Below, piece after piece: positions 9,269-24,754 of a stretch of DNA of 37,668 bases. Location of the stretch: NCBI GenBank assembly GCA_024276605.1, contig JAJRWX010000058.1:1-37668 (forward strand), read 5' to 3'. Under the pieces are notes generated by a model, which saw only the letters and a program-made list of their open reading frames with translations, searched no databases and had not been told where the DNA came from. Each line of letters opens with the position of its first letter. The first letter of the stretch is position 1. The translations under genes and the position numbers were made by a program. The stretch is from Planctomycetota bacterium. Its GTDB lineage: Bacteria > Planctomycetota > Phycisphaerae > UBA1845.

Positions 9269-9717
9269 TCGTCGAAACCGTTCCCCAAAACCACAATTAG
9301 TGAGTGTATTTACGTCCTATAACAATTGAAACGTTTGGCAACAATAGATTATGATGCTGCACCGATGTGTATTTGGAGAGTGTACGGTCATGATCAGGAC
9401 TGTTCAGCCGGATAATTAATGTAATCTAGAGTTCAGAATTCAAGGTAGTTGGGGCGAAGTGCTGTGATATATCAGTACTGATGTGGCTGGCACATGAATT
9501 GTCACTTTAATGGTTGAGTTTTTTTTAACTTAACTGTTGAATCACTTACCCCAATACCCTAGACTGGCAGAATGTCAGATCATTCAGATCGTTGGCAATG
9601 GAGGAGAAGGGTGCATATCGCATCTCTTGTTAGGCTGGGTTTGTTGAACTAAGTGGTAGCTGAGTCACGCGTGGACGAAGTGTTTCTGTGCGTTTTGCTT
9701 GGTGGAGGGAGCGTTCA
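9269..9717. other. Intergenic region upstream of the giant surface protein
   Basis: This 449-base, AT-rich gap contains no credible gene. A possible sigma70-type promoter is annotated separately at 9326-9355; T-tracts and AT-rich blocks continue to about 9550. The last bases (GGAGGGAG before 9718) are the ribosome site of the next gene. If the candidate promoter is real, the giant gene would have an unusually long 5' leader of about 360 bases. Confidence 0.4.
9326..9355 (+). promoter_or_regulatory. Candidate sigma70 promoter
   Basis: TTGAAA at 9326-9331 and TATGAT at 9350-9355 are separated by 18 bases, close to the sigma70 consensus. It points toward the giant cysteine-rich gene. The call rests on the boxes alone. 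Confidence 0.3.
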
Positions 9718-12700
9718 ATGGTGGGAAGACTGAGCAGTGTCAAATCAAGGACCAGAGGTGAAGGATCGCCGTCATTTGGTCGCAGGTGGCTACTTTCTTT
9801 GATGATCGTTAGTTTGTGCCTTTTGTTAGGCACTCCTGCTTGGGCTAGCGGTAGCGATGATTGGCCGTGCTTGAACGATTGCCCATGTAGCGACGGCGTT
9901 TCATTTCTTCGCATGAGATATAACGGGCCAAGTGGTGTAACCGTTACCGTGAAAGCCGGTAGCAGCACTATATATAGCTCGGTGCATAATGATGGGGATT
10001 TGTTTGAACTAAATGGCAACGCGTCGGATGGTGATTTTTCTAACAACCAACTTAATTTCAAAATCGACGGTACGACTAATGCTGAGATCCATGTTTCTTG
10101 TTCTCAGCCAATTGGCGTTGGTTTTGTTTATGGCGCTTTCACCGTAGAGGCGATGGCTTCTGTGGATGCCGGGCTTTTTGAAACGGCATGTCCGGATGAT
10201 TGCCCATGTGATGGTCTTGAGGTTGATCTAACCAAATACGGTCAAGGTGGTAATTCTTGTGCTGCCAGTACCAGGCCGGTTACAACCGATGGTTCGTCAG
10301 CCCCATTTGTCATGACCGCACGTACTCAGGTTGATGATAGTGCGCCGCTGAACCCTACGGCTTCCGGCAGTGCGGGTAAGGTTTATATAGGTAAAAAAGG
10401 CTCAGGCGTGTTGAGTGACGGGTGTTCGGGGAAGAAGGGGATTACCGGCAAAAAAAGCGAGAGGGATGAAGAGCTAGCCTTTACATTTGATAATCCCGTC
10501 TTGGCCGCCAATATTCAAATTCACCTGAATAGGGCGGATTTAGTAGGTGATAGTGACGATAGTGCCAGATTACTGATGCCCGTCGCGTCTGCCGGTGAGG
10601 ATCAGGCAGCCGATTCGCAAACACTGGTTTCCCTGGATGGAACCGGTAGTAGTTCTCCTCTCGGCGTGGTTTCTTACACATGGACACAGATTTCCGGCCC
10701 GACGGTTACACTTTCAAATGCCAATGCGATACAACCGAAATTTGTGGCGCCGACGGTTTCGCAATCTACACCTATCGAATTTCAGTTGACGGTATGGGAT
10801 GGTCAAAATACCCATTCAGACATCGTGCAGATCAACGTCAATGATCCAGTCGCATCCAATAGCGTACCGATTGTAGATGCCGGCACAGACATTACCTCAG
10901 TTGAACTAGTACCCATTTTACTTGATGCTACGAATACGACAGATCCTGATGGCGACGTACTCACTTACACTTGGGAGCAGGTTTCCGGTACGCCGGTGGT
11001 ATTAGTGGATGCCAACACGGCCCAGGCGAAGTTCTTAGCGCCGGACTTGGTTGATGACGAGATCTTGAAGTTTCGTGTAACCGTCTCGGATGGTCAATCA
11101 TCATCAAGTAGCACCATGTCAACGTCGTTATCCAGTAGTGCTGATGAGCCGGTCATTTACCTTTCTAGCACCAGCGCCTCAGGTTTTGATTATACGATTC
11201 CCACCGCTGAAATTTTATTGGCCTTTACGAACGATGGTGCGAATCGCGGTTGGGTGGATTTTAGTCAGTTTACTTCACTGCCGGCAGGTTTGATGATCGA
11301 CGCATTCAAACTGCGGGAAACAAACGATGACCTGTACATCGACTTTTACCTCGATTGCACCCCGGCTTGTACAATTGACGCGGATTGTGATGACAATGAT
11401 GCGTGTAACGGTGTTGAGACTTGCGACTTGGTCAACGGTTGCCAGGCGGGAACGCCGCTTGTTTGCGACGATGGCAACCTGTGCAACGGTACGGAAACTT
11501 GCGACCCTGCCACGGGTTGCCAGCCGGGTACACCCGCTACGCCGGGAACCTCCTGTGAGGATGGCGACGTATGTAATGGGGCAGAGGTGTGTGATGCGGG
11601 TGGTGTATGCCAGCCCGGTACGACATTAGTGTGTGATGACGGCAACGAATGCAACGGTCTCGAAACCTGCGACCCCACATTAGGATGTCAGCCGGGAAGT
11701 AATGTTAATTGCCCGCCGGTCGAAGCCGTCTTTGTCATGGATACTTCAGGGTCCATGCAAAACGAAGGTAACGCACTGTGTAACACGATTAACGGCATTA
11801 TCTCAGATTTGGGATTGCAGGGGATTGTGGTTACATCTTCGGTTTTGGCTATCCACCCTAACAACAACAACGATCTTTTTAGTTGTCAAACGTCTAGTGA
11901 CACGGTTCATTTGCTTTTGGGAGACCCGGTACCTGGTGATCCGGACGGTTGCCCGGGCGACCTGAGCGGCAACAACAGTAGCGAAAAAGACGAAAACTGG
12001 GGACCGGCGACGGCTATTTTGGCTGATCGTTTCGCCTGGACGCCCGGCTCTGTGCGATTGATTATTCCCATCAGCGACGAAGGTGCATGCCTGGGTAGTA
12101 GCGGCAATGGCTGTAATGATCCGGGCAGCGATCGTGATGCGGTTGAGAATGCGATTACCATCGCCGTAACCAACAACGTCATTGTATCTCCCATCACTGG
12201 TGATGGTTCGAGTGCCTGTGTCATTGGTTTAGCGCAGCGCATGGCCACGGGCACCGGTGGTACGGCTTTTCAGTCGTCCGATCCAAGTGCGGACTTGGCC
12301 AATGGTATTGCCAATATTATTCTGGCCGCTTGTCAGACCGTAGACGTCTGCGACGACGGTGATGCTTGTACGGTGAGTGACTCCTGTGCCTCTGGTACTT
12401 GTCAGGGAACACCTGTGACGTGCCCACCGGACGATGAATGTCAGTCGTTCGTCTGTAACGCAGCCAATGGTCAGTGCGAAGGCGTCGCCATCAACGAGGG
12501 GTTGGCTTGCAGCGATGACGGCAATGCCTGTACGGATAATATCTGTCAGGCTGGCGCATGCATAGCTGTTAATAATGACGCCAATGCGTGTGACGACGGT
12601 CTGGCTTGTACGACGGATGCTTGTGTAAGCGGCAGTTGCGTCAGTACAGCGATAACCTGTCCGGGCGATACCGATTGCCAGACGTTCGTTTGCGATACCA

Positions 12701-15700
12701 ACACCGGGTTGTGCATCGCCCAAAACATCAACGGTGGTCTGGCCTGCACGGACGATGGCAACCCCTGTACGGACAATGTATGTCAGGCCGGCGCGTGTGT
12801 CGCGGTGAATGACGATAGCAACAGTTGTACCGATGGTAATGCCTGCACGACGGATGAGTGCCTGGCAGGCGCTTGTGTGAGTACATCGATAAGTTGCCCT
12901 GTCGACAACGAATGTCAAACTTTTGTATGCAATCCAGCCAATGGACAATGTGAGGCTCAATCGATCAATGAAGGTTTATCTTGTACGGATGACGGCAATG
13001 CCTGTACGGACAACGTTTGTCTAAGTGGTGTTTGTTCGGCGGTCAATGACGATACCAACGTGTGTTCGGATGCGGACGCATGTACGGACGATGCCTGTGT
13101 CGCCGGCCAGTGCGTGAGTACGCCCATCACCTGCCCGGCAGATGATGATTGCCACACCTTTGTCTGTGATAGCGGAGCGGGCATGTGCATCCCTCAGCCG
13201 ATCAACGAAGGCTTGAGCTGTACGGATGACGGCAACCCATGTACGGACAATGTCTGCGTCTTCGGCGTTTGTGTTGCGGTTAATGATGAAACCAACACGT
13301 GTAGCGATGGTTTGAACTGCACGACGGATACTTGCGTTGGTGGTCTGTGTGTCGGTACGCCCATTACTTGTCCCGACGCGACGGACTGTCAAACCTTCGC
13401 TTGTGATGAGGTTACAGGTCAATGTGTGGCCAGTAACACCAACGAGGGCCTCGCCTGTACGGAAGATGCCAACCCCTGTACCGACAACGTATGTCAATCC
13501 GGTGCCTGTGTCGCGGTGAATGACAATAGCAATACATGCTCGGACGGGAATCTTTGCACGGATGATGCTTGTGTGAACGGGGTTTGTACCGGTACGCCGA
13601 TCAGTTGCCCGTCTGCCACTGATTGTCAGACATTCACTTGTAATGTAGCGACTGGACAATGTGAAGCCCAAAGTACCAATGAGGGCTTAGCATGTACCGA
13701 TGATGGTAATCCTTGTACGGACAATGTTTGCCAGTTGGGTGTTTGCATAGCAGTCAACGACAACACCAACGCCTGTACGGATAGCAATCTTTGCACGACC
13801 GACGCCTGTGTCGGTGGTGTGTGCGTGGCGACTCCGGTGTCATGCCCTGCGGCAACGGAATGTCAATCATTTGTATGTGATGTCGTAGACGGCCAGTGCA
13901 AGGCACAACCCATCAATGAGGGGTTAGCCTGTACCAGCGATGGTAATCCCTGTACGGATAATACTTGTCAGTTGGGTGTTTGTATCGCCACCAATGACAA
14001 CACGAATGCTTGTACCGACGACATCGCTTGTACGGACGATGTTTGCCTCAATGGCAGTTGTTCATCGACGCCCAATGATGCCAGTTGTGATGACAGTTGT
14101 ATTTGCACCGTGAATGTTTGTTCTCCGTTGGATCCGTTGGCCGATGTGAGCGGCTGTGTGAGTACGGCGATACCGAGTTGTTGCCCACTCGATCCCTGCG
14201 AAGACAATAACGCCTGTACGGATAACGTATGCGATACCTTAACCGGGTCGTGCTCCTTCCCGCCGATTCCGATCGATTGTTCGGAATTGGACGGTGATTG
14301 TACGTTAGGGGTTTGCGATCCGGCGTCGGGTCTTTGCACGATCGAAATTATCAACGAAGGCTTTGAGTGCACCGACGACGGCAATGCATGCACGGACGAT
14401 GTTTGTCGCAACGGCGTTTGTACACCGGAAAATAACGATGCTAACACGTGTACCGACAACAATCCTTGCACGAGCGATTCATGCCAGGCCGGTGCGTGTG
14501 TGAGTGACGCCATTCCGTGCCCTGCGGATACGGATTGTCAAACCTTTACCTGTAATACCACGACGGGCCTGTGCGAAGCGCAGTCTATCAATGAAGGATT
14601 AGCCTGCACGGATGATGGTAACACTTGTACCGACAATAAATGCCAAGCAGGCGCTTGCGTGGCGGTCAATAACGATGCCAACACCTGTACCGATGGCAAT
14701 GCCTGTACCAACGATGCGTGCGTCGGTGGGGTGTGTCAAAGCACGAATGTTTCCTGCCCGGCGGATACGGCTTGTCAAACGTTTGTCTGCAATCTAGCTA
14801 CCGGTATTTGCGATCCGCAATCCATCAATGAAGGGTTGGCCTGTCCGGATGACGGCAATGCCTGTACGGATAACGTTTGTCGAACGGGTGTATGTACCGC
14901 TGAAAATGATGACACCAATACTTGTACGGATAGCAATCCCTGTACCACCGATGCGTGCGTCGCCGGTGCATGTACCAGTACCAATATCACCTGTCCGGCG
15001 GATAATGATTGCCAGACGTTTGTATGCAATACTTCGACGGGGCAGTGCGAACCTCAATCGATCAATGAGGGGTTAGCCTGCACGGATGATGGCTTGCCTT
15101 GTACGGATAATGTCTGCCTGAGTGGTACCTGTACGGTGGTCAACGACGACACCAATACCTGTACGGATAATAACCTATGCACCACCGATGCGTGTACCAG
15201 CGGAGTATGCGTAAGTACCAACATCTCCTGCCCGGCGGATACGGACTGTCAGACGTTTGTATGTAACCCGGCGACGGGGGTATGCGATGCCGTATCGATC
15301 AATGAGGGGTTAGCTTGTACGGATGATGGGAATCCCTGTACGGACAACGTCTGTCGCAGCGGTGCATGTGCGGCTGAAAACGATGATACCAATACCTGTA
15401 CGGACAATAGCCTTTGTACGGATGATGCTTGCGTAGCCGGTGGTTGTATCAGCACCCCGGTCACGTGCGATGACAATAATGTGTGCAACGGGGTGGAGAC
15501 TTGCGACCCCTTGTTAGGTTGTCAGGCGGGTACGCCGCTGAGTTGTGTAGATAGTAATCTATGTAACGGTACAGAGACGTGTGATGCCACCTTGGGTTGT
15601 CAGCCGGGCGTTCCGTTGGTTTGCGATGATAACGATGCGTGTACGGGCGTAGAGGTTTGCGTACCGGCTACGGGTTGTCAGCCGGGCACACCTCTGGTCT

Positions 15701-17415
15701 GTAACGACAATGATGTGTGCAACGGCGTGGAAACGTGTGCTCCAGCCAGTGGTTGTGTCGCTGGTGTACCGTTGGCGTGTGATGATAACGATGCCTGCAC
15801 AGGCGTTGAATCTTGCGATGCCACCCTGGGTTGTCAGGCGGGTACGCCTCTGGTTTGTGATGATAATAGTGTGTGTAACGGATTAGAGATTTGCAACCCG
15901 GCTACGGGTTGTGAACCGGGTACGCCGCTGGTGTGCGACAACAACGATGCCTGTGACGGGTTGGAGACCTGTAATCCCATTACCGGTTGCCAAAACGGTA
16001 CGCCGTTGAACTGCGATGATAGCGATCTTTGTACCATTGATGCTTGTGATGCGCTATTGGGTTGTCTACCCAAGACACCGGTAGATTGTGATGACAACAA
16101 CGTGTGTACGGGTGTGGAGACATGTGATCCATTGTTGGGTTGTCAAACCGGTACACCGCTCGTGTGTGATGATGGTAATTTATGTACCGATGATGCGTGT
16201 GATCCAATCGCCGGTTGCCAATTCCTGCCCGACGACAGCAACAGTTGCGAGGCCGACGGTGATCTATGTACGATCGATGTTTGCATAGCCGGCGTATGCG
16301 ATACGACAATGAAGACTTGTCCTGGGGATACGGAATGTAGCACGTTCAGTTGCAATGTGAATACGGGCGATTGTGATGAGCTTCCCATCAACGAAGGGCT
16401 GGCTTGCAGTGACGAAGGGAATGAGTGTACCGCTGACATCTGCCGTAGTGGTTTATGTGCCCACGAAGTCACCGACGGTGCGCCTTGTACCGATGATGGG
16501 TTGGAATGCACCGATGATCTTTGCGATGCGACCGGCGTGTGTAATCATACGGATGTGATCGACGGGACGATTTGTACGGTAGATGCACTGGTTTGTACGT
16601 TGGACGTCTGCATCGGTGGTTTGTGCGATCACGTCGGTATGGATGATGTCTGTGATGATGCCGTAGGTTGTACGAGTGACCTTTGCGATCTGATCAACGA
16701 TTGCGTGAACACCCCGGTGGATTTGGCCTGTGACGATGCGGTAGCTTGTACCATCGACGCTTGCGACCCGATGAATGATTGCCTGAACACACCGGACAAC
16801 ACAGCCTGTGACGATGGCGTGGTGTGTACGACCGATGTGTGCGACGCCATAGCCGGTTGCTTATCGACGCCTAACAATTCGTCATGCGATGATGGTGTAG
16901 CTTGCACTATCGATACCTGCGACTCAGTGGCGGATTGTCAGTTTACGCCGGATAGCAGCCTGTGCGACGACGGGAACGAATGTACGATCGATCAGTGTAC
17001 GCCTACCGGGTGTATCTTTACGGATACCGGCTTGTGCGGTGCGTGCTGTGTATCAGCCACGAAGTCCTGCATCCCCGATGTCTTGCAAGGTACGTGCACT
17101 AGCCTGAACGGTCTGTTCATCGGTTCGGGCACCGTCTGCCTGGGCGATGCGGACAATGATGGCGTCGACGACCTCTGTGACAACTGCAATGGGGCTAACG
17201 ATGCCATATTCGGTGTGCTTCTGTGTAGTGAATCCGGTATCGCCTGTGAGGTCGATGGCGATTGTGGTCCGGGCGAGATTTGTGAGAAGGCCTGTTTGGG
17301 CAAGATTCCCACGGTTTCCGAATGGGGCTTGGTCGTGCTGACACTGCTGTTGTTGGTCTGTGGCAAGCTGTTTTACGGTGCTCGTCGATCACTCAGTCCA
17401 GTTCGAGCTCGGTGA
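9718..17415 (+). CDS. Giant secreted cysteine-rich vWA repeat protein with IPTL-CTERM sorting tail
   Basis: A 2565-residue exported protein, probably displayed on the surface and handled by the exosortase encoded downstream. Start at ATG 9718 is supported by GGAGGGAG six bases upstream. Order: signal sequence (hydrophobic LLSLMIVSLCLLLGTPAWA); a small beta domain with the CSQPIGVGFVYGAF signature; two PKD-like domains (each with a YTW..VSG/ISG strand and DG turn); four 26-residue four-cysteine repeats; a von Willebrand A domain with MIDAS D675-T-S-G-S; then about 1650 residues of Cys/Asp/Asn-rich repeats; one short DADNDGVDD segment; and a tail IPTVSEWG, a hydrophobic helix and a basic end (GARR...). 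The tail matches the IPTL-CTERM pattern (motif, membrane helix, arginines). Repeats of this kind are seen in large secreted proteins, and a disulfide-rich fibre is the likely structure. Ligand and role (adhesion, cell-cell contact, envelope layer) are unknown. Confidence 0.85.
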   Translation: MVGRLSSVKSRTRGEGSPSFGRRWLLSLMIVSLCLLLGTPAWASGSDDWPCLNDCPCSDGVSFLRMRYNGPSGVTVTVKAGSSTIYSSVHNDGDLFELNGNASDGDFSNNQLNFKIDGTTNAEIHVSCSQPIGVGFVYGAFTVEAMASVDAGLFETACPDDCPCDGLEVDLTKYGQGGNSCAASTRPVTTDGSSAPFVMTARTQVDDSAPLNPTASGSAGKVYIGKKGSGVLSDGCSGKKGITGKKSERDEELAFTFDNPVLAANIQIHLNRADLVGDSDDSARLLMPVASAGEDQAADSQTLVSLDGTGSSSPLGVVSYTWTQISGPTVTLSNANAIQPKFVAPTVSQSTPIEFQLTVWDGQNTHSDIVQINVNDPVASNSVPIVDAGTDITSVELVPILLDATNTTDPDGDVLTYTWEQVSGTPVVLVDANTAQAKFLAPDLVDDEILKFRVTVSDGQSSSSSTMSTSLSSSADEPVIYLSSTSASGFDYTIPTAEILLAFTNDGANRGWVDFSQFTSLPAGLMIDAFKLRETNDDLYIDFYLDCTPACTIDADCDDNDACNGVETCDLVNGCQAGTPLVCDDGNLCNGTETCDPATGCQPGTPATPGTSCEDGDVCNGAEVCDAGGVCQPGTTLVCDDGNECNGLETCDPTLGCQPGSNVNCPPVEAVFVMDTSGSMQNEGNALCNTINGIISDLGLQGIVVTSSVLAIHPNNNNDLFSCQTSSDTVHLLLGDPVPGDPDGCPGDLSGNNSSEKDENWGPATAILADRFAWTPGSVRLIIPISDEGACLGSSGNGCNDPGSDRDAVENAITIAVTNNVIVSPITGDGSSACVIGLAQRMATGTGGTAFQSSDPSADLANGIANIILAACQTVDVCDDGDACTVSDSCASGTCQGTPVTCPPDDECQSFVCNAANGQCEGVAINEGLACSDDGNACTDNICQAGACIAVNNDANACDDGLACTTDACVSGSCVSTAITCPGDTDCQTFVCDTNTGLCIAQNINGGLACTDDGNPCTDNVCQAGACVAVNDDSNSCTDGNACTTDECLAGACVSTSISCPVDNECQTFVCNPANGQCEAQSINEGLSCTDDGNACTDNVCLSGVCSAVNDDTNVCSDADACTDDACVAGQCVSTPITCPADDDCHTFVCDSGAGMCIPQPINEGLSCTDDGNPCTDNVCVFGVCVAVNDETNTCSDGLNCTTDTCVGGLCVGTPITCPDATDCQTFACDEVTGQCVASNTNEGLACTEDANPCTDNVCQSGACVAVNDNSNTCSDGNLCTDDACVNGVCTGTPISCPSATDCQTFTCNVATGQCEAQSTNEGLACTDDGNPCTDNVCQLGVCIAVNDNTNACTDSNLCTTDACVGGVCVATPVSCPAATECQSFVCDVVDGQCKAQPINEGLACTSDGNPCTDNTCQLGVCIATNDNTNACTDDIACTDDVCLNGSCSSTPNDASCDDSCICTVNVCSPLDPLADVSGCVSTAIPSCCPLDPCEDNNACTDNVCDTLTGSCSFPPIPIDCSELDGDCTLGVCDPASGLCTIEIINEGFECTDDGNACTDDVCRNGVCTPENNDANTCTDNNPCTSDSCQAGACVSDAIPCPADTDCQTFTCNTTTGLCEAQSINEGLACTDDGNTCTDNKCQAGACVAVNNDANTCTDGNACTNDACVGGVCQSTNVSCPADTACQTFVCNLATGICDPQSINEGLACPDDGNACTDNVCRTGVCTAENDDTNTCTDSNPCTTDACVAGACTSTNITCPADNDCQTFVCNTSTGQCEPQSINEGLACTDDGLPCTDNVCLSGTCTVVNDDTNTCTDNNLCTTDACTSGVCVSTNISCPADTDCQTFVCNPATGVCDAVSINEGLACTDDGNPCTDNVCRSGACAAENDDTNTCTDNSLCTDDACVAGGCISTPVTCDDNNVCNGVETCDPLLGCQAGTPLSCVDSNLCNGTETCDATLGCQPGVPLVCDDNDACTGVEVCVPATGCQPGTPLVCNDNDVCNGVETCAPASGCVAGVPLACDDNDACTGVESCDATLGCQAGTPLVCDDNSVCNGLEICNPATGCEPGTPLVCDNNDACDGLETCNPITGCQNGTPLNCDDSDLCTIDACDALLGCLPKTPVDCDDNNVCTGVETCDPLLGCQTGTPLVCDDGNLCTDDACDPIAGCQFLPDDSNSCEADGDLCTIDVCIAGVCDTTMKTCPGDTECSTFSCNVNTGDCDELPINEGLACSDEGNECTADICRSGLCAHEVTDGAPCTDDGLECTDDLCDATGVCNHTDVIDGTICTVDALVCTLDVCIGGLCDHVGMDDVCDDAVGCTSDLCDLINDCVNTPVDLACDDAVACTIDACDPMNDCLNTPDNTACDDGVVCTTDVCDAIAGCLSTPNNSSCDDGVACTIDTCDSVADCQFTPDSSLCDDGNECTIDQCTPTGCIFTDTGLCGACCVSATKSCIPDVLQGTCTSLNGLFIGSGTVCLGDADNDGVDDLCDNCNGANDAIFGVLLCSESGIACEVDGDCGPGEICEKACLGKIPTVSEWGLVVLTLLLLVCGKLFYGARRSLSPVRAR
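12490..15534 (+). repeat. Tandem 237-bp (79-codon) cysteine repeat array
   Basis: The [I/N]NEG[L/F] start of the unit recurs at 12490, 12727, 12964, 13201, 13438, 13675 and 13912, then at 14350, 14587, 14824, 15061 and 15298: every step is exactly 237 bases except one of 438. A thirteenth, isolated unit begins at 16387. Each unit has 12 cysteines in three groups of four (positions 7, 14, 19, 24; 34, 40, 45, 50; 57, 63, 68, 75 in the unit starting at 14824). Codon choice differs between units, so these are old copies held to a fixed length, not a recent slippage product. Confidence 0.9.
15466..16242 (+). repeat. Tandem 78-bp (26-codon) cysteine repeat array
   Basis: Units of the form C-x5-C-x5-C-x5-C (for example CDDNNVCNGVETC then D/N...GC) start at 15466, 15544, 15622, 15700, 15778, 15856, 15934, 16012, 16087 and 16165. 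All steps are 78 bases except one of 75, where the CTIDAC variant loses a residue. Four more copies lie before the vWA domain (about 11369-11705), and one copy is in the 758-residue protein at about 19120-19220. Confidence 0.85.
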
Positions 17416-17481
17416 TGATAAAAGTAAGCAGGCAGGTAAGAGTTAAAGTGTGAGTGAAACGGGATTTTTTTCTTTTTTTTC

Positions 17482-17511
17482 TTGTCATAATCAGGCTATT
17501 TGTGGTATAGT
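17482..17511 (+). promoter_or_regulatory. Candidate sigma70 promoter for the Lnt-like gene
   Basis: TTGTCA (17482-17487) and TATAGT (17506-17511) are 18 bases apart, about 68 bases before ATG 17579. A T-rich tract (17464-17480) lies directly upstream. There is no hairpin after the giant gene's stop, so the T-tract is not called as a terminator. Confidence 0.4.
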
Positions 17512-17578
17512 GGGGCCTGTTGGTGAGGGCGAAGAAGCCTTCTTACGCAAAGCTTTGTTCGTTGCGGTAAGATAGGGT

Positions 17579-18265
17579 ATGAATTTGGCGACTATTCCAG
17601 TGACAGATAATCGGCACTCTGCTACTTGGGGCGGGCTATTAGCCTTGTCTTTAGTGGGTGCTGCGCTGCTTATGTCACTGGCCCTTTCCTCCGCCTCAAA
17701 CCAATGGTTGGGCCTGATCACGCTGGTACCGCTGCTATGGTGCATGAGGATACTTTCTCCGTCGCGTGCCTGTCTGGCCGGTGGACTGTATGGTTTAAGT
17801 CTTGCCGTCTTTAGTGGTTTAGGTTCGCATCCCTCGTTGGCTATGTCGATTAGCTCTGTGGCGTTAATCACGCTTGTGGTGAGCGTTTACGGATGGCTGG
17901 GTGCGCGGATCACACGACGCATCGGCTTTAGTCCGCTCATTCTGGCGTTGGGTTGGGTCGTGGTCGAGTTGGCGCTCAAACCATTGGCAATTAAGCATGG
18001 TTTGTTAGCCTCGACGCAGGGCGGTGGCTTGTTCGTTCGTGTCATTGGCCCGGTAGCTGGTTATCTCGTCGTAGCCTTCCTCATCGCTTATTTCAATGCC
18101 TCCATTTTGGAAATCCTAACGGGGGCATGTACGGTCGACGGCGGTGGCCGACGTTTAGTCTTTTCGAGTCGTCCCTATGTGGCGGCTATCCAATCAACTT
18201 TCCTGTGTTGTCCCACGGATTATGCAAATATAGCGCAACCCCGCGCTCCTCCTTTAGCCGTCTGA
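17579..18265 (+). CDS. Lnt-like polytopic membrane protein lacking the nitrilase domain
   Basis: A 228-residue membrane protein resembling only the N-terminal transmembrane part of apolipoprotein N-acyltransferase (Lnt). WLGLITLVPLLW followed by AGGLYGLSLAVF, then PLILALGWVVVELALKP and GPVAGYLVVAFLIAYFNASI, follow the order and character of the Lnt helices that precede its catalytic domain. The carbon-nitrogen hydrolase domain with the Glu-Lys-Cys triad is absent; after the last helix only about 45 weakly patterned residues remain. I looked in the other two frames downstream and found no remnant of a nitrilase domain. It is either a truncated lnt or a stand-alone membrane protein built from the same scaffold. 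It sits between the two exosortase-substrate genes, so a role in that pathway is possible but unproven. TATAGT and TTGTCA boxes lie upstream. Confidence 0.55.
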   Translation: MNLATIPVTDNRHSATWGGLLALSLVGAALLMSLALSSASNQWLGLITLVPLLWCMRILSPSRACLAGGLYGLSLAVFSGLGSHPSLAMSISSVALITLVVSVYGWLGARITRRIGFSPLILALGWVVVELALKPLAIKHGLLASTQGGGLFVRVIGPVAGYLVVAFLIAYFNASILEILTGACTVDGGGRRLVFSSRPYVAAIQSTFLCCPTDYANIAQPRAPPLAV

Positions 18266-18465
18266 GTTGTCTACTGCCTCCTTTTCATGAGCGAGGTGGT
18301 CGACTTGGATGCAGACACGGTTTGTAGGTGTGTTTGCTTTGCTGGTTATCGGTTATTCACTAATTTAGAGTTTGTGCGTACGACGGCTTGTCGTCTAGTC
18401 GTGATAGCTATTAAACCCGCTGTGGTTAGACGCTGTCGACGCAATGGTTTGCTACCGAAAAAGTC

Positions 18466-18484
18466 GAGAGGGGATTGGCCTCTC
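18466..18484 (+). other. Stem-loop in the leader of the TSP3 protein gene
   Basis: GAGAGG (18466-18471) pairs with CCTCTC (18479-18484) across a seven-base loop, ending 18 bases before the GGAGGT ribosome site. Such 5' hairpins can stabilise mRNAs of abundant secreted proteins; that role here is inference. Confidence 0.35.
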
Positions 18485-18515
18485 TCGCGAAACCTTATGT
18501 TTGGAGGTAATGGAA

Positions 18516-20792
18516 ATGAAGGTTAAACGATTTGTAGCTTTAACAGCTGCTGTTTCTTTGCTTGCTTCGAGTGCGGCATTAGCGCTCGACCCGGTACAGG
18601 TTACGCCTGTCACCACGAAAGATACATTGAGAACTGATTCAATGAGTACAGGTAGTCAGTCGTCTAATAACTGCGCCTCAGTCATTGCTGAGGGTAATAT
18701 CAGTGAAATCGGCGTGACGGTTATTTCCGGCGTTCTTGACGCCGCGAGCTTAGATGATTTTGATGATGCCGTAGGCAATGCGCTTTGCGGTGGATCTGGT
18801 TATGGTACGGGTGGTACCCCTGATAATATTCACTCGTTCACGTTAAACCAGAGTGGTGTGTGGGGCTTTGATGCCGGTTGCGGCGTTTTTAGTGCCAATG
18901 TCAACACGTATGATACCAGCATGCACATTCGTCAGGACACTGGCGGAGGTTGCCCCGGCGACATAGTTGCTTGTAACGGTGATGCCTGTGGTTCGCCTTG
19001 GCCATCGGCTATTTTTGAGTTCCTGACCGCAGGTACCAATTACTTCCTGGTCATGGAAGGCTACAGCCCTTATACGTATGGTGCTTACAGCGTTGATGTT
19101 GGCCAGGTTGCACCACCATGTGTGACGAATGCCGATTGCGATGACTTGGATTTCTGCAATGGTACCGAAACATGTAGTGTTGATGGCGAGTGCCTACCTG
19201 GTTCCGCCCCTTGTCCAGCATGGCAAGATTGTGATTCCATCACAGGTACCTGTGGTGCTTCACCTCCGGCTTGCACCCAGGTATTAAAGGGTGATGGTGC
19301 CCAGTTCTTCTTCCCGAATGCCAACAACTGTGACGGTTGTGGTGAAGCTGACGACGTAACCTTACGCGTAGGTGCCGGTCGCGATCTGATCAGCTACTCG
19401 TTCGAGATCATCGGTCGTGCCATTGGTGCCGCTGTTGGTGATCCGTACACCGTCACCAGCCAGTTGTACACGATTACCGCCGCTGGTAATCCTGGTGCGC
19501 CGATTCCAGGTACAACCTGTAACTTTACTTTCGCCATTCAGCCGGGTGGTACTGCTGCTGATATTGCCCTTTGTGAGCCGAATGCCGGCTTGCCGACGGG
19601 TATCATTTTGAATCCAGGCCCCTTCGGCACTGAAGGTTTCGTGGTTTATCGTTCCACCACAGATGGTAGTGGTTTCTTGATTGCCGGTGGTCCTCCTCGT
19701 ATTGGTGGCGATATGAATCCAGCCACGGTTGATGGTATTGAAGCCGCCTTTGGTCAGTCCATTTTCTGGTTGGAAGGTACCCCAGGCGCCGACGATTGGG
19801 GCCCCGGTGCGTTTGCTGCTCCAACCGTATCTGACTTCAACGCCATGAGCGTTTGTACCGATCCAGTCGGTCCTTGCTGCACGGGCAATACCTGCTCGAT
19901 GCTCAATGATGCTGATTGTACGGCAGCCGGTGGAACGCTTACGCTCGGTTTGAATACCGTGGATAATCCAGTCACCTGTGGTGATACCGACTGTGACGGT
20001 GACGGCGTGATCGCTAGCTTGGACAACTGTCCGGATATTGCGAACCCAACTCAAACCAATAGTGATGCTGACTCACACGGTGATGCTTGTGACAATTGCC
20101 CAACGACTGATAACGAAGATCAGGCCAATGGCGATGCTGACTCGTTCGGCGACGCCTGCGACAATTGCCCAGCCGTTACTAATGAGGATCAGGCCAATGG
20201 TGATGCTGACACGTTCGGCGATGTTTGTGATAACTGCCCGGCTGATGATAACCAAGATCAGCTAAACAGTGACACTGACACGCTCGGCGATGCTTGCGAC
20301 AACTGCCCGCTCGTTGATAACGAAGATCAGGCAGATTGTGGCGCTAACGGTGTTGGCGATGCTTGTGATGTCAATACTGATGGCGATATCCTGACGGATG
20401 AGTGCGACAACTGTCCAACTCGACCAAATGATGATCAAGCTGACGGCGACGGTGACGGTGTTGGTGATGTTTGTGACAACTGTCCGGTTGATGCGAACCC
20501 AACTCAGACTGATACCGATGGCGATACCGTCGGTGACGTTTGTGACGGTTGCCCGAACGATGCCAACAAGACTGATCCGGGTATCTGTGGTTGTGGCGTT
20601 GCCGATGTTGGTGACAGCGACAATGACGGTGTGCTTGATTGTGTAGACATCTGCCCAGGTGCTGATGATGCTGTCTTTGGTGATTGCACCGGCAACATCC
20701 CAACCGTCTCCGAATGGGGTCTGGTTGTCCTGGCGTTGCTACTCTTGGTAGCCGGTAAGGTCTATTATGGCCGCCGCACTGCTTTGAGCTAG
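18516..20792 (+). CDS. Secreted thrombospondin type-3 repeat protein with IPTL-CTERM sorting tail
   Basis: A 758-residue exported protein, second predicted substrate of the exosortase. ATG 18516 is chosen because GGAGGT (18503-18508) is seven bases upstream and the peptide then starts as a signal sequence (MKVKRFVALTAAVSLLASSA). After it comes a PPC-like beta domain (GTPDNIHSFTLNQSGVWGFD...), one copy of the four-cysteine CNGTETC repeat shared with the giant protein, a beta-rich central region, and thrombospondin-3-type calcium repeats (DNCPTTDNEDQANGDADSFG and relatives). The repeats step by exactly 69 bases (GAC/GAT starts at 20091, 20160, 20229, 20298). The end is IPTVSEWG plus hydrophobic helix plus GRR. 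Earlier in-frame starts lack a ribosome site. A surface structural or binding role is likely; the ligand is unknown. Confidence 0.85.
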   Translation: MKVKRFVALTAAVSLLASSAALALDPVQVTPVTTKDTLRTDSMSTGSQSSNNCASVIAEGNISEIGVTVISGVLDAASLDDFDDAVGNALCGGSGYGTGGTPDNIHSFTLNQSGVWGFDAGCGVFSANVNTYDTSMHIRQDTGGGCPGDIVACNGDACGSPWPSAIFEFLTAGTNYFLVMEGYSPYTYGAYSVDVGQVAPPCVTNADCDDLDFCNGTETCSVDGECLPGSAPCPAWQDCDSITGTCGASPPACTQVLKGDGAQFFFPNANNCDGCGEADDVTLRVGAGRDLISYSFEIIGRAIGAAVGDPYTVTSQLYTITAAGNPGAPIPGTTCNFTFAIQPGGTAADIALCEPNAGLPTGIILNPGPFGTEGFVVYRSTTDGSGFLIAGGPPRIGGDMNPATVDGIEAAFGQSIFWLEGTPGADDWGPGAFAAPTVSDFNAMSVCTDPVGPCCTGNTCSMLNDADCTAAGGTLTLGLNTVDNPVTCGDTDCDGDGVIASLDNCPDIANPTQTNSDADSHGDACDNCPTTDNEDQANGDADSFGDACDNCPAVTNEDQANGDADTFGDVCDNCPADDNQDQLNSDTDTLGDACDNCPLVDNEDQADCGANGVGDACDVNTDGDILTDECDNCPTRPNDDQADGDGDGVGDVCDNCPVDANPTQTDTDGDTVGDVCDGCPNDANKTDPGICGCGVADVGDSDNDGVLDCVDICPGADDAVFGDCTGNIPTVSEWGLVVLALLLLVAGKVYYGRRTALS

Positions 20793-20824
20793 TGTTTGAT
20801 TGATTACTACGATTTTCCGACGAT

Positions 20825-20852
20825 GGCGGAGTCTCATTAATGAGGCTCCGCC
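20825..20852 (+). terminator. Palindromic hairpin after the TSP3 protein gene
   Basis: GGCGGAGTCTCATT (20825-20838) pairs along its whole length with AATGAGGCTCCGCC (20839-20852), with one G-T wobble. It lies 32 bases after the stop. A T-run follows only at 20874-20879, so it is a good RNA-stabilising or terminating hairpin but not a textbook intrinsic terminator. Confidence 0.5.
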
Positions 20853-21024
20853 TCATCGGTCTTCGTGGTGTGCTTTTTTGCCATACCCGAATGGTTTGGG
20901 TGTTGGCTGTTTCGGTTTATCGATCATTGATCGACAGTGATGCAATCACTGTTTCGGGGGTCTACCCGATTACAGGGTTGTATCCTATGATTTAAGCACA
21001 GCGGGTTTATTGATATATTAAAGG

Positions 21025-21063
21025 CCGCCTGTGGGGATAAAGTTCCTGCAGGCGGTTTTTTTT
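21025..21063 (+). terminator. Intrinsic (Rho-independent) terminator
   Basis: CCGCCTG (21025-21031) pairs with CAGGCGG (21049-21055), and the stem continues inward through GGGGAT/GTTCCT with G-T wobbles to a three-base AAA loop. Eight Ts (21056-21063) follow at once. This is the clearest terminator in the window and separates the substrate gene from the exosortase genes. Confidence 0.85.
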
Positions 21064-21095
21064 GCAGGTGATACGATGTGCGTTAATCCATTGAT

Positions 21096-21214
21096 CCGAG
21101 CCGCAAGCGCCAGCGACCGGTGTCTTCAGGCTCTAACCCACGCTACGAATAACCTGGGCGATTCCGGGGTGTATGGCGCTGTGAAAACACGGGTCGCTTG
21201 CGCTCGCCGCTCGG
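21096..21214. repeat. REP-pair (REPIN-like) element
   Basis: A 28-base arm at 21096-21123 (beginning CCGAGCCGCAAGCGCCAGCG) and the reverse complement of 21187-21214 (beginning CCGAGCGGCGAGCGCAAGCG) agree at 23 or so of 28 positions and are separated by 63 bases. Two inverted REP-like arms around a spacer is the structure of a REPIN. I recall similar GCAAGCGCCAGCGACCGG sequences as common intergenic repeats in planctomycetes. No associated transposase is in the window. Confidence 0.6.
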
Positions 21215-21307
21215 ATTGTTGCTTGGATTGCCTTATTCCGTGAAAGATGCTTTTGCTTTATAGTTTGGTAAGTGAAGTGAAGTGAAGATGGAGGCGATGT
21301 TCACCGT

Positions 21308-21916
21308 ATGGGTAGGCACGATAAACATAAACACGATTCATTATCGCAGCGTGATGACAAGTCACACCCTCGAAGACGGAAAGGGCTGAGAAAGTCGTGG
21401 TACGCTACACATGGTCGAGATTTGAGGTTCTTGGCCATGTTCGCGGTGCTCATGGGCGGATATTACTTCATCACCACCACGGCGACCATGAAAGATGATT
21501 TCATCCCGTGGTTTCTTGGGCAGAATGCGCGGGCTTCTGCAGCCGTACTGCATACTTTTGGTTATGAGGATATGACGCGGCGCGGGAATGCGTTGACCTC
21601 TTCGCGTGGGGCTGTGACTGTGGAGCGCGGTTGCGATGCGTTGGATCCGTGTGCCCTTTTTGTCGCGGCGGTGTTGTCTACACCTGCCGCCTTTTCATCA
21701 AGGCTCTTAGCTGCGATTGGGGGGGCATGCATTCTCATCGTACTCAATCTCGTTCGCATTATCACTTTGTTTCTTACGGCTGTTCACTGGCGTTCGGCGT
21801 TTGATGTGATGCACCTGGAAGTCTGGCAGGCGTTGTTTATTATTTTAGCGATTGTCTTGTGGATGACGTGGGCTTCGTGGGAGCGTCGTCGTCGACGTAA
21901 GATAGTAGTGAGTTGA
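21308..21916 (+). CDS. xrtH: Exosortase, XrtH type (IPTLxxWG-CTERM processing)
   Basis: Membrane cysteine transpeptidase-like enzyme predicted to cut and sort proteins with an IPTL/IPTV-SEWG C-terminal signal. The exosortase triad is visible: Cys109 in RGCDALDP, Arg150 in LNLVR at the start of a helix, and His169 in MHLEVWQ before the last helix. About five membrane segments fill 202 residues, the small size seen for XrtH. The basic N-terminus (KHKHDSLSQRDDKSHPRRRK) is cytoplasmic. The XrtH assignment rests on the two IPTVSEWG proteins encoded just upstream, on size, and on the partner gene that follows 48 bases later. GGAGG lies 13 bases before ATG 21308, a long spacing, so the exact start is uncertain. 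Confidence 0.8.
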   Translation: MGRHDKHKHDSLSQRDDKSHPRRRKGLRKSWYATHGRDLRFLAMFAVLMGGYYFITTTATMKDDFIPWFLGQNARASAAVLHTFGYEDMTRRGNALTSSRGAVTVERGCDALDPCALFVAAVLSTPAAFSSRLLAAIGGACILIVLNLVRIITLFLTAVHWRSAFDVMHLEVWQALFIILAIVLWMTWASWERRRRRKIVVS

Positions 21917-21964
21917 TGATGCCGTACGGTTCACGCGAGATGAATATCCCTATCGATACCTTTT

Positions 21965-22723
21965 ATGGTTGAACATTCCACACAACCCAATGATAAGTCA
22001 TCTCGTGCCGGTGGTGTGTCTGAGGCTGTTGAGGCTCCATCACCACCATCGATGATACGATTTTTCCTTATGTTTTGCCTGCTGTGTGGTTTGTTGCTAG
22101 CCCCTTGGTCAAGTGTTGAGCAAGGTTATCGAAGTTTGTTTAGATTCGGCGGCGATGTTGTTTTTTCACGTTTTTGGTTCTGGTCAGATGGGTATGTGCG
22201 GTTTATGGATTTGAAATCGGATGATGTCCATGCTCGCGTCAATGCCGTGATTCCGCGATCATTGCCGCCTGGGTTTCGTCTGCCGGCACCGTCTGGTGAG
22301 CTGGATGTGTTGATGGTGTTACAAAATCGCCGTGCGGTGGGAAGTCTGGGTTTTATTCGCGCAAGCAGTAGAAATCAGGGTTATTGGCCGACCGCGTTTT
22401 TGATTGCGCTGATTCTGGCGAAGCGTATGCGTTGGTCTCGTCGGGGGTGGGCGCTGCTGTGGGGTATGCTCATGGTGCATGCGTTCATCGCATTTCGGCT
22501 TTCTATCAATTTATTGGCTACGGGTTTTGCCGTGCCGGGCAAGCGTTATGCTATATTTGAACCGAGCGAATTCTGGCTGGCGTTGTTGCGGCGTGCGGAT
22601 GAGGTGTTTGTACAGAATCCCACGGTATCATTTGTCGTCGCGGCTTTTATCTGGCTGGTGGTCGCTTTTACCAAGCAGGATTGGGTGATGGTTCTACAAG
22701 CCACTCGTCATGATGATGATTGA
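21965..22723 (+). CDS. Exosortase-associated membrane protein
   Basis: A 252-residue protein with an N-terminal membrane helix (FFLMFCLLCGLLLAPW), an extracytoplasmic region of about 90 residues, and three further helices (TAFLIALILA, WALLWGMLMVHAFIAFRLSI, VSFVVAAFIWLVVAFT). I recognise no catalytic motif. It is 48 bases downstream of the exosortase gene on the same strand. I recall that XrtH genes often have a paired membrane protein of this layout, so it is called as the XrtH partner; that is recognition by context, not by motif. It may help the exosortase bind substrates or place the product. Confidence 0.6.
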   Translation: MVEHSTQPNDKSSRAGGVSEAVEAPSPPSMIRFFLMFCLLCGLLLAPWSSVEQGYRSLFRFGGDVVFSRFWFWSDGYVRFMDLKSDDVHARVNAVIPRSLPPGFRLPAPSGELDVLMVLQNRRAVGSLGFIRASSRNQGYWPTAFLIALILAKRMRWSRRGWALLWGMLMVHAFIAFRLSINLLATGFAVPGKRYAIFEPSEFWLALLRRADEVFVQNPTVSFVVAAFIWLVVAFTKQDWVMVLQATRHDDD

Positions 22724-22813
22724 TTTGACTGATTTAGGTTTAACTTTCAGGTCATGACTTTTGTTAAGAAGCGGGGATTACATTTATTGGTTTACGCAGG
22801 ATAAGACGCACCT

Positions 22814-24754
22814 ATGGGTCACAAAAAAAGACATGCGGGAAACAAGGAAACTGTTACATCCGGCAGCACGGGTAAGGCGGTAGTTTCGGGGGCCGGGCGT
22901 GGACGCATCCTTTCAATCATTGGTATATTGCTTGGCGCTGTTACCCTGATTGGTTTGTTCATTTGGGGACGTGGTGGAGGCACGATTGAGACGGCGTGGG
23001 TATCCGGCGTAGCCAAGGGATATAATATCGTGTTGATCACGATGGATACGACCCGCGCCGATCATATCGGGTGTTACGGGCGTGAACGTGCAGAAACGCC
23101 GATCATCGATCGTTTGGCCCGGGAGGGCATTCGTTTCGAAGATGCCGTTTCGCCGGTACCGATGACGCTTCCCTCTCATAGTTCGATTCTTACCGGTCTA
23201 GACCCCATTAGCCACGGTGTTCGATCTAATGGTACTTATTCGTTGAAAGATGAACATGCCACGTTGGCGGAAATACTGCGCGATGAGGGATATGAAACCG
23301 GCGGGTTTGTGGCCTGCTTTGTCTTAAATGCCCGGTTTGGTTTGAATCAGGGGTTCGATGTTTACAACGATGAGGTTGAAGCGGCCCCGGATGCGATGGT
23401 TGGTGGACTCACGAGTGAACGTGATGCAGAGCAGGTATCCAATGCCGCAGTATCCTGGTTGCAACAGCGAGATAAGAAGAAGCCTTTTTTCATGTGGGCG
23501 CACTTTTATGATCCTCATGAACCGCACGAATTGCCCGCAGCCTATGTGTCACGTTTCAAAGACCATGTGTATGATGGTGAGATTGCCTTTGTGGATGCAC
23601 AGATAGGTCGCATTCTCGATACGCTTACTTCCCAAGGTGTGAACCAACAAACGATTGTGATTGTAACGTCGGATCATGGTGAAAGTCAGGGGGAACACAA
23701 CGAACTTACGCATACGCGTTTTATCTATGAAGCTACGCAGCACGTACCGCTGATCCTTTGGTCACCTTCGCTATGGGATGGTGGTGTGGTTGTGGATGAT
23801 GTCGTTGTCGGTGTGGTTGACATTGTGCCCACGGTATTGGACCTACTTGGTGTGGAGAGTGAAGAGCGCTTTGATGGAATTTCATTACGGCGGAGTCGAG
23901 AAAATCCGGATCGTGTCGTGTACATAGAGACCATGGCGAACTATCTGGACAATGGTTGGGCACCACTCTTTGGTATGCGCCGGCATCTTGATAAATATAT
24001 ATTGGCGCCCAAGCAGGAGTATTACGATCTTGAGCGCGATCCTCACGAATTGACCAATCGATTTGGCGCTCGCTCGAAGCGCATTTCAGCCTCCGTCCAA
24101 ACGTTGTCAGAGGCGCTGGCTAAGCGCCGTGAAAGTGACGTTGATATTGCTGATATGGCCACGAATGTAGAAGACCTCGAACCGGAAGCCAGGCAAAAAT
24201 TGGAAGCCTTAGGCTATCTGGGCGGCGACGGGCCGGTCGCTACGGAAGGTGAGTTGCAAGACCCTAAAGATATGATGATCGTCTGGCAGATGGTTCAAGA
24301 TGCGAATAAAAAGTCACGGCACGGCCAACGAAAGGAAGCGCTATCTCAGCTACTCGAAGCCAAAGTGTTGGCGCCGCACGACCATTCGATTGATCGCCAT
24401 TTAGGTATATTGTACATGCGTTTAGACCGCTTGGCTGAGGCGGAGGAATCACTGGAACGGTATCTCAAAGTGCGATCTACGAATTCAAGCATTCATGCGC
24501 TGATAGCGCAAATCATGATTAAACAAAAGCGGTTCATGGAGGCTAAAGAACGCTTGAAGACAGCCTATGAACTTTCTCCGGAGAATGGGGTCGTGCTGGT
24601 GGCGATGGGGGACTTGCTTGCCGTGGTTGGTAATATCAACAAGGCCCAGGCTTATTATGAACAGGCGCTGAAAGTTGACCCGTACCGCATGGAGAAAGCC
24701 ACGAGTGATCGGCTCAACAAATTGCAACAGATACGTAACGCGATGGGTCAATGA
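22814..24754 (+). CDS. Membrane-anchored sulfatase-fold (alkaline phosphatase superfamily) protein with TPR tail
   Basis: A 646-residue protein: basic start, one membrane anchor (about 34-51), a sulfatase-fold domain facing outside (about 70-380) and TPR repeats (about 480-640). Fold motifs are clear: LITMDTTRADHIGCYG (metal ligands from Asp78), SHSSILTG, and TSDHGESQGEHNE. The nucleophile position reads T118-L-P-S-H instead of the C/S-x-P-x-R needed for formylglycine, so it is unlikely to be a true sulfatase. Thr at this place is used by phosphotransferases of the superfamily such as LtaS, so a phosphodiesterase, phosphotransferase or regulatory role is more likely. A common ALGYLGG linker joins the two parts. 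It is 90 bases after the exosortase partner gene. Its stop overlaps that of the convergent His-rich gene by seven bases. Confidence 0.75.
   Translation: MGHKKRHAGNKETVTSGSTGKAVVSGAGRGRILSIIGILLGAVTLIGLFIWGRGGGTIETAWVSGVAKGYNIVLITMDTTRADHIGCYGRERAETPIIDRLAREGIRFEDAVSPVPMTLPSHSSILTGLDPISHGVRSNGTYSLKDEHATLAEILRDEGYETGGFVACFVLNARFGLNQGFDVYNDEVEAAPDAMVGGLTSERDAEQVSNAAVSWLQQRDKKKPFFMWAHFYDPHEPHELPAAYVSRFKDHVYDGEIAFVDAQIGRILDTLTSQGVNQQTIVIVTSDHGESQGEHNELTHTRFIYEATQHVPLILWSPSLWDGGVVVDDVVVGVVDIVPTVLDLLGVESEERFDGISLRRSRENPDRVVYIETMANYLDNGWAPLFGMRRHLDKYILAPKQEYYDLERDPHELTNRFGARSKRISASVQTLSEALAKRRESDVDIADMATNVEDLEPEARQKLEALGYLGGDGPVATEGELQDPKDMMIVWQMVQDANKKSRHGQRKEALSQLLEAKVLAPHDHSIDRHLGILYMRLDRLAEAEESLERYLKVRSTNSSIHALIAQIMIKQKRFMEAKERLKTAYELSPENGVVLVAMGDLLAVVGNINKAQAYYEQALKVDPYRMEKATSDRLNKLQQIRNAMGQ

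Follow-up and report, generated by a model that had tools for sequence, protein, structure and literature searches.

Among described systems, the element considered here stands closest to the arrest peptides that carry RAPP or RGPP. These two motifs are reported to be robust and versatile in arresting translation, to be avoided in proteomes, and to be enriched at the C-termini of small membrane or secretory proteins encoded by open reading frames (ORFs) upstream of diverse genes (PMC12992588). The criteria applied to arrest-type upstream ORFs (uORFs) are a localisation signal, a conserved C-terminus, and a spacer of more than 30 residues (PMC10987492), and membrane helices have been found to finish integrating at ~45 residues (PMC7886326). 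On the protein-sorting side, the closest described system is exosortase H (XrtH, TIGR04177) with its IPTL-CTERM substrates, and another mode of CTERM gene control has been published, for an RpoN-dependent PEP-CTERM gene (PMC9850573). We analyzed a 37,668-nucleotide stretch of DNA from a Planctomycetota bacterium (contig JAJRWX010000058.1, C40 of the 4.5-Mb assembly), referred to below as the window, which carries an XrtH-like exosortase gene together with genes for exported proteins that end in sorting tails. Directly before one of these tail genes lies a gene for a membrane protein that resembles part of apolipoprotein N-acyltransferase (Lnt) and has RAPP near its C-terminus. This Lnt-like gene is the new and most interesting part of the locus, and its product is probably a translation-arrest leader that controls the downstream exosortase substrate. 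The gene and its immediate surroundings are laid out as follows, where K class denotes a tail with Lys at residue 13 after its WG.

17579 to 18265, + strand: Lnt-like polytopic membrane protein of 228 amino acids (aa), candidate arrest leader (PF20154 at 34.5 bits, family profile, structure model, Foldseek)
18050 to 18139, + strand: codons of the last helix of this protein, residues 158-187 (secondary structure of the model)
18140 to 18241, + strand: codons of its linker, residues 188-221 (predicted local distance difference test (pLDDT), column identity, near-fixed length)
18242 to 18253, + strand: codons of R222-A-P-P225, the candidate translation-arrest motif (R[AGP]PP in homologues; the stop lies three residues on)
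18266 to 18509, + strand: leader from the Lnt-like stop to the likely start of the TSP3 gene, with a hairpin at ~18466-18488 before GGAGG (sequence, folding)
18510 to 20792, + strand: exported protein with TSP3 repeats and a K-class IPTVSEWG tail, whose motif starts at 20697 (ORF, Pfam, start site)

The Lnt-like protein has the LNT_N membrane domain (PF20154, 34.5 bits) without an acyltransferase domain, and LNT_N was found in 20/23 scanned homologues. No nitrilase-type acyltransferase domain was detected in the Lnt-like proteins, for which LNT_N alone matched in the Pfam scans. In the structure model, whose mean pLDDT is 71.7, a helical bundle extends through residue 187 and is followed by residues 188-221 with pLDDT below 50. 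When this model was compared with the PDB by Foldseek, the 24 best matches were all Lnt, with weak E-values (0.02-0.45) and probabilities of at least 0.97. The likeness to Lnt consists of the LNT_N domain and the Foldseek matches, whereas the missing nitrilase-type domain, a score far under the cut-off of the lnt equivalog model (18.2 vs 132.9 bits), and the RAPP C-terminus set the protein apart. The original prediction for this DNA, made from the sequence alone, had already singled out the Lnt-like gene as the odd member of the locus, and in this it was right.

Lnt-like homologues were first met in XrtH loci, immediately 5' of tail genes. A profile search of 60 related genomes found the Lnt-like gene in 30, every one of which (30/30) is XrtH-positive. 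Across 114 genomes of the order, a set that overlaps with the 60, a Lnt-like gene is present in 42 and XrtH at E ≤1e-12 in 57. XrtH is present in 41 of the 42 (the exception is G318), while just 1/57 genomes without XrtH has a Lnt-like gene (Fisher p 2e-16, relatedness ignored). In a sample of the phylum, 1/245 other genomes gave a match, a weak one of 42 bits in a 618-residue frame with the motif absent.

The neighbour survey covered 58 Lnt-like genes in 30 genomes, of which 3 are cut, 4 have a cut neighbour, and 51 are complete; the next gene was defined as the longest same-strand ORF beginning at most 600 bases downstream. This next gene ends in a sorting-type tail in 51/51 complete cases, 45 recognised by pattern and 6 with deviating motifs recognised by eye, and every tail class is represented. 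Eight further loci came from newly drawn genomes; two of them (L317, L319) repeat L299 and L305 and were not counted, and L316 and L318 are close to L158. Among the six previously unseen loci, the motif was found in 6/6 and tails in 3/3 uncut next genes. The Lnt-like gene and tail gene also occur as tandem pairs, two in G013 and two in G021, and one such pair lies on another contig of our genome (C23), with no XrtH found nearby. In other families of the order (L273, L281, L286, L287), the genes after Lnt-like genes end in other motifs, such as PAMSTEG and PATTTEG, perhaps further CTERM classes for other XrtH-like enzymes.

R[A/G/P]PP occurs in 59/59 homologues with an intact C-terminus (RAPP in 50, RGPP in 7, RPPP in 2) and is encoded by varied codons. 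A C-terminal R[AG]PP was found in 46/49 Lnt-like ORFs vs 2/1451 other ORFs of the same loci, a comparison that excluded RPPP and motifs more than 30 residues from the end; one of those two other ORFs, in L118, is in fact a truncated Lnt-like gene that precedes a tail gene. For the linker and motif we aligned 58 of 62 sequences, omitting three whose C-termini are cut and one that scored low. The R and both prolines of the motif are 100% identical in the alignment, and mean column identity is 0.93 for the motif and 0.116 for the linker (residues 188-216). Length is nevertheless kept where sequence is not: the stretch between column 170 and the end of the motif spans 56 residues in 48/58 sequences and 55-59 in 58/58, a spread of at most 4, as against 1 to 52 residues after the motif. 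Estimated by hydropathy, the distance from the end of the last helix to the end of the motif is 42-48 residues in 50/59 homologues and exactly 44 in 32/59.

It is extremely improbable that Lnt-like genes are Lnt remnants in decay, retained through linkage, with the motif a product of chance or a relic of the lineage. Such decay would explain why the acyltransferase domain is missing and why some copies are shortened. It does not sit with an R, P, P that is invariant in 58 sequences behind an unconserved linker of near-fixed length, with a motif present in 46/49 vs 2/1451 ORFs, or with the ratio of nonsynonymous to synonymous substitution (dN/dS), which is ~0.1 against the G001 gene and denotes purifying selection.

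The same dN/dS, together with a membrane domain whose column identity is 0.40 (0.55 across residues 112-145), would also suit a protein with a job of its own in the sorting machinery, handling lipid or substrate, with RAPP as a C-terminal tag for protein binding. The resemblance to the Lnt membrane domain and the position directly before tail genes point the same way. A binding tag, however, is expected at a fixed distance from the C-terminus, and here that distance varies from 1 to 52 residues while the distance to the helix is near-fixed, which therefore counts against a tag. Moreover, the motif is one of the two robust arrest sequences, RAPP or RGPP, in 57/59 homologues, the Lnt acyltransferase domain was not found, and N-terminally shortened relatives retain the C-terminal part. 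We therefore regard a working part with a binding tag as unlikely by itself, though both this role and arrest could be true at once. Two of the shortened relatives (L118 and L148) retain just the last helix, linker and motif, and another (L126) retains little beyond linker and motif; in each of these three loci a tail gene still follows. Along with L147, for which no Lnt similarity was found, they form a set of RAPP- or RGPP-ending ORFs with little Lnt domain upstream of tail genes beside XrtH, and these ORFs may be arrest leaders themselves.

The reading as an arrest leader can be compared with published criteria for RAPP/RGPP peptides. Taken in its wide sense, the criterion of PMC12992588 is a motif near the C-terminus of a protein of fewer than 300 residues; 57/59 homologues have RAPP or RGPP, the window's protein has 228 aa, and a few Lnt-like frames exceed 300 aa when taken from stop to stop. 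A membrane signal and a spacer of more than 30 residues are both present, since the bundle runs to residue 187 and the motif is at 222-225, and the helix-to-motif spacing of ~44 is close to the ~45-residue integration point (PMC7886326). The Lnt-like proteins fall outside the Sec/YidC-related arrest peptides of PMC10987492, which were sought as uORFs of a sec or yidC gene with a product lacking functional annotation, because the next gene encodes a tail-bearing exported protein and the product has LNT_N. With ApdA, ApdP, the RQH-family uORFs, CruR, and SecM (RAGP), the Lnt-like gene shares a membrane-signal uORF, a C-terminal RAPP/RGPP near the stop, a spacer of more than 30 residues, and a downstream gene on the same strand. 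Unlike those peptides, SecM included, it would use a whole polytopic Lnt-derived domain of ~190 residues as its sensor. Its downstream gene encodes an exosortase substrate, a class unnamed in the sections consulted of PMC12992588 and PMC10987492, and its arrest is a prediction from sequence. The word "exosortase" is absent from the main text of both papers. Our literature search, with most subscription journals and preprints outside its scope, returned no paper joining exosortase with an arrest peptide or with apolipoprotein N-acyltransferase, PEP-CTERM with ribosome stalling, or exosortase with IPTL-CTERM or XrtH.

From the domain, motif, spacing, gene order, and XrtH co-occurrence, all directly observed, we infer that ribosomes stall in the Lnt-like frame and that the next gene is controlled by the stall; the sign of that control and its release trigger can be no more than surmised. 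On this reading the locus is an XrtH-type exosortase cassette: its exported proteins bear the tails, one exosortase is active, and the exosortase-like partner lacks catalytic activity. Within it the Lnt-derived protein would head the TSP3 gene, and probably XrtH and the partner too, as a translation-arrest leader. The ribosome would arrive at RAPP near the end of the ORF as the last helix, ~44 residues away, has left the tunnel, and would stall there unless the nascent chain were pulled or released. The stall would set the expression level of the downstream substrate, and release would presumably come from membrane insertion or from contact with the sorting machinery. Perhaps the arrest sensor also controls the genes behind the substrate (XrtH and partner). 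A more far-reaching version, which we offer only tentatively, is a co-translational checkpoint on the exosortase pathway throughout this order of Phycisphaerae-like planctomycetes: a stall at RAPP as the last helix clears the translocon would be freed by insertion or by contact with active XrtH and the dead exosortase, switching the substrate operon, and one cell would run a number of these modules in parallel, with a separate XrtH paralogue and tail code for each.

Several observations weigh against control by arrest. RAPP alone does not suffice for arrest: of 23 motif-bearing sequences from E. coli and B. subtilis, most failed to stall efficiently in vitro (PMC10987492). The conservation of the membrane domain (column identity 0.40) exceeds what a bare localisation signal needs, and a role of this domain beyond sensing may coexist with arrest. 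The downstream gene encodes a sorted protein and not a translocase. As many as 16/57 XrtH genomes have no Lnt-like gene, and our own genome has 2 Lnt-like genes vs 24 tails, so that most tail genes are without one. Relatedness among the genomes also means that the statistics on motif and spacing are in part non-independent. Finally, SecM-type unmasking of the Shine-Dalgarno site by a ribosome parked at RAPP gave a negative result over 58 loci (change 0.001 vs 0.014 in shuffles, p = 0.72). The leader RNA itself is more structured than shuffles in the window (folding z -3.03), and leaders from motif to start at the 58 loci have a mean z of -1.16, with 13/58 below -2. Shine-Dalgarno sites precede the next gene in 54/58, a count biased upward because the sites themselves helped to decide which start was taken. 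A stall could possibly act via transcription attenuation, mRNA stability, or RNA refolding. No known RNA family reached its gathering threshold within the window, and in scans of 17000-23000 promoter and terminator sites were no more numerous than in shuffles.

If an arrest leader is indeed at work here, exosortase substrates would be a new target class for translation-arrest control, and an entire polytopic membrane domain borrowed from an enzyme would be a new kind of sensor in it. These bacteria may, in other words, control protein sorting by ribosome pausing. With its unconserved linker and a spacing near-fixed at 44 residues, the family provides a natural set of ~60 force-sensor variants, which opens a direct test of whether arrest peptides report on protein sorting, beyond Sec, YidC, and metals.

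The remaining genes of the locus, whose exosortase and tails represent a known system in variant form, are as follows.

9688 to 17415, + strand: giant Cys-rich exported protein with a K-class tail, whose motif starts at 17305 (ORF, Pfam, tail pattern)
21308 to 21916, + strand: XrtH-like exosortase with Cys109, Arg150, and His169 (TIGR04177, TIGR04178, conservation)
21965 to 22723, + strand: partner, an exosortase-related membrane protein without Cys and His (HHalign, column comparison)
22814 to 24754, + strand: sulfatase-fold protein with TPR repeats, of unsure membership in the locus (Pfam; homologues in L088, L089, L093, L097, L100)

The original prediction described this as a self-contained XrtH locus with two exported IPTVSEWG substrates, one of them a giant of 2565 residues, and an exosortase with a Cys, Arg, and His triad and a membrane partner just downstream. 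Most of these parts are real: both ORFs and their tails are as described, the giant has 2565 aa from ATG 9718 (2575 from the GTG), and the triad residues 109, 150, and 169 are conserved. The finding was framed on the wrong feature. The locus is not self-contained, and a locus that sorts its own two surface proteins, with the Lnt-like gene incidental, is very unlikely, even though the gene order is kept in three congeneric genomes and a single tail class stands beside the XrtH genes of the window's clade. Our genome has 24 tails and three XrtH-like genes, the same tail class occurs in genomes without the window's clade, and linkage between the Lnt-like gene and tail genes was seen across 30 genomes. 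Both conditions that the original prediction had named as refuting it went against its strict form: the XrtH score falls under the cut-off, and the window's class of tail is present in genomes whose XrtH-like enzymes all belong to other clades. The order of giant, Lnt-like, TSP3, XrtH, and partner genes, which the prediction had proposed to look for in other Planctomycetota, recurs in full in two congeners and, among the loci fetched, stays within the genus (3 genomes). The unit found more widely is a Lnt-like gene with a tail gene after it, and XrtH and partner often come next.

The type of the exosortase was also given as XrtH. TIGR04177 is indeed its best NCBIfam match, at 77.4 bits under a cut-off of 86, and we call the enzyme XrtH-like because of that shortfall; it passes the more general TIGR04178 (43.0, cut-off 23) and PF09721 (28.9, cut-off 25.7). 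Cys109, Arg150, and His169 are kept in 94, 95, and 95 of 96 aligned XrtH-like proteins. The best family match, the catalytic triad, and the adjacent IPTVSEWG tails are shared with exosortase H, from which the system differs in the score under the cut-off, in the exosortase-related partner without Cys and His, and in having several paralogues per genome, each with its own tail class alongside. Two more XrtH-like genes occur in our genome, at 96.1 bits (on C37, above the TIGR04177 cut-off) and 83.3 bits, along with two genes giving strong EpsH-type matches, and relatives of the window's exosortase were found in 39/60 related genomes, with at most 5 per genome.

An IPTVSEWG pattern matched 6 places in our genome, 2 of them inside the window. 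A pattern for such tails gave 2 matches in the window vs 0 in 100 shuffles. The IPTL-CTERM profile marks 24 places at E ≤10, 15 of them over the cut-off, and by eye all 24 look like C-terminal tails. Residue 13 after the WG splits these into 10/24 with Lys, including the window's two, and a second class of 14/24 with Thr (10), Ser (2), Ala (1), or Ile (1). Both window proteins end in IPTVSEWG, a hydrophobic stretch, and a basic end. Scanned as a whole protein, the TSP3 protein passes both tail models (PF18203 23.5 bits, cut-off 20.8; TIGR04174 22.5, cut-off 20.5) and the giant narrowly misses them (19.1 and 19.0); in the genome scan with PF18203 both are above cut-off, at 28.7 and 22.5.

We placed the window's enzyme in a quick tree of 96 XrtH-like proteins, including 93 listed matches outside our genome, where its clade has 13 rows (support 93). 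A tail motif lies at most 1.6 kb upstream of the XrtH match in 28 loci, and these tails were classed by eye as K/YFG (7), T (18), or IKFG (3); one of the seven (L098) has YFG and no Lys at +13. The tail classes found next to XrtH genes track the branching of the XrtH tree: they need 2 changes, the minimum possible, and no label shuffle of 1000 needed fewer than 6, or fewer than 5 with four close relatives dropped. All tail-bearing loci of the window's clade (7/7) are of the K/YFG class. A one-to-one rule in which K-class tails need the window-type clade is supported by adjacency but was rejected, since canonical K tails occur without that clade in G017, G018, and G020 (21/21 inspected, taken from the best profile matches). 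These three genomes have XrtH-like enzymes that share another clade (L042 type). Among the 22 family genomes, one or the other clade is present in each of the 12 that have K tails and in 0/10 of the others, a rule devised post hoc, after the data had been seen, that we do not claim; the L042-type genes of G001 and G002 adjoin a T-class tail, which speaks against it.

The partner had no family match in profile scans. Its profile aligns with that of XrtH by HHalign at a probability of 97.7 (E 2e-12) locally and 98.7 globally. A homologue is present in 79/111 fetched loci, 95 of which have an XrtH match (adjacency to XrtH was not checked per locus). It keeps the exosortase Arg position in 64/79, whereas within the matching stretch Cys is absent from the commonest residues and there is no conserved His. 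By sequence comparison, the partner reads as a non-catalytic, exosortase-like subunit, and it would presumably bind XrtH. Together with the tail classes, it bears on how substrates are discriminated among several exosortases per cell.

A von Willebrand factor A (vWA) domain had been proposed for the giant; no Pfam vWA model matched, and a DTSGSM motif seen by eye is what remains of it. Pfam profiles found K319L-like PKD domains and Dicty_CTDC repeats instead, and homologues in G001 and G002 are 79-80% identical. The calcium-repeat protein was correctly recognised, as PF02412 matches confirm its TSP3 repeats. Its ORF opens at 18444 (18444-20792, 782 aa), and the Shine-Dalgarno site favours ATG 18510 or 18516. 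A surface layer or fibre as the product of the locus is still a guess. A similar DxDxDGxxDCxDxCPGxDD stretch precedes the K-class tails on C10, C19, and C66 and the window's TSP3 tail, slightly different on C10; tail class and the domain preceding the tail may, on this pattern, be linked. The gap between the TSP3 gene and XrtH (20793-21307) is ~515 bases, vs ~400 in G001, and no feature was identified in it. The sulfatase-fold/TPR gene adjoins XrtH and partner in several genera, and its product is possibly part of the anchoring chemistry. Among the genomes searched, G020 had the most matches, ~104-116 to the two tail profiles and at least 9 to the Lnt-like profile.

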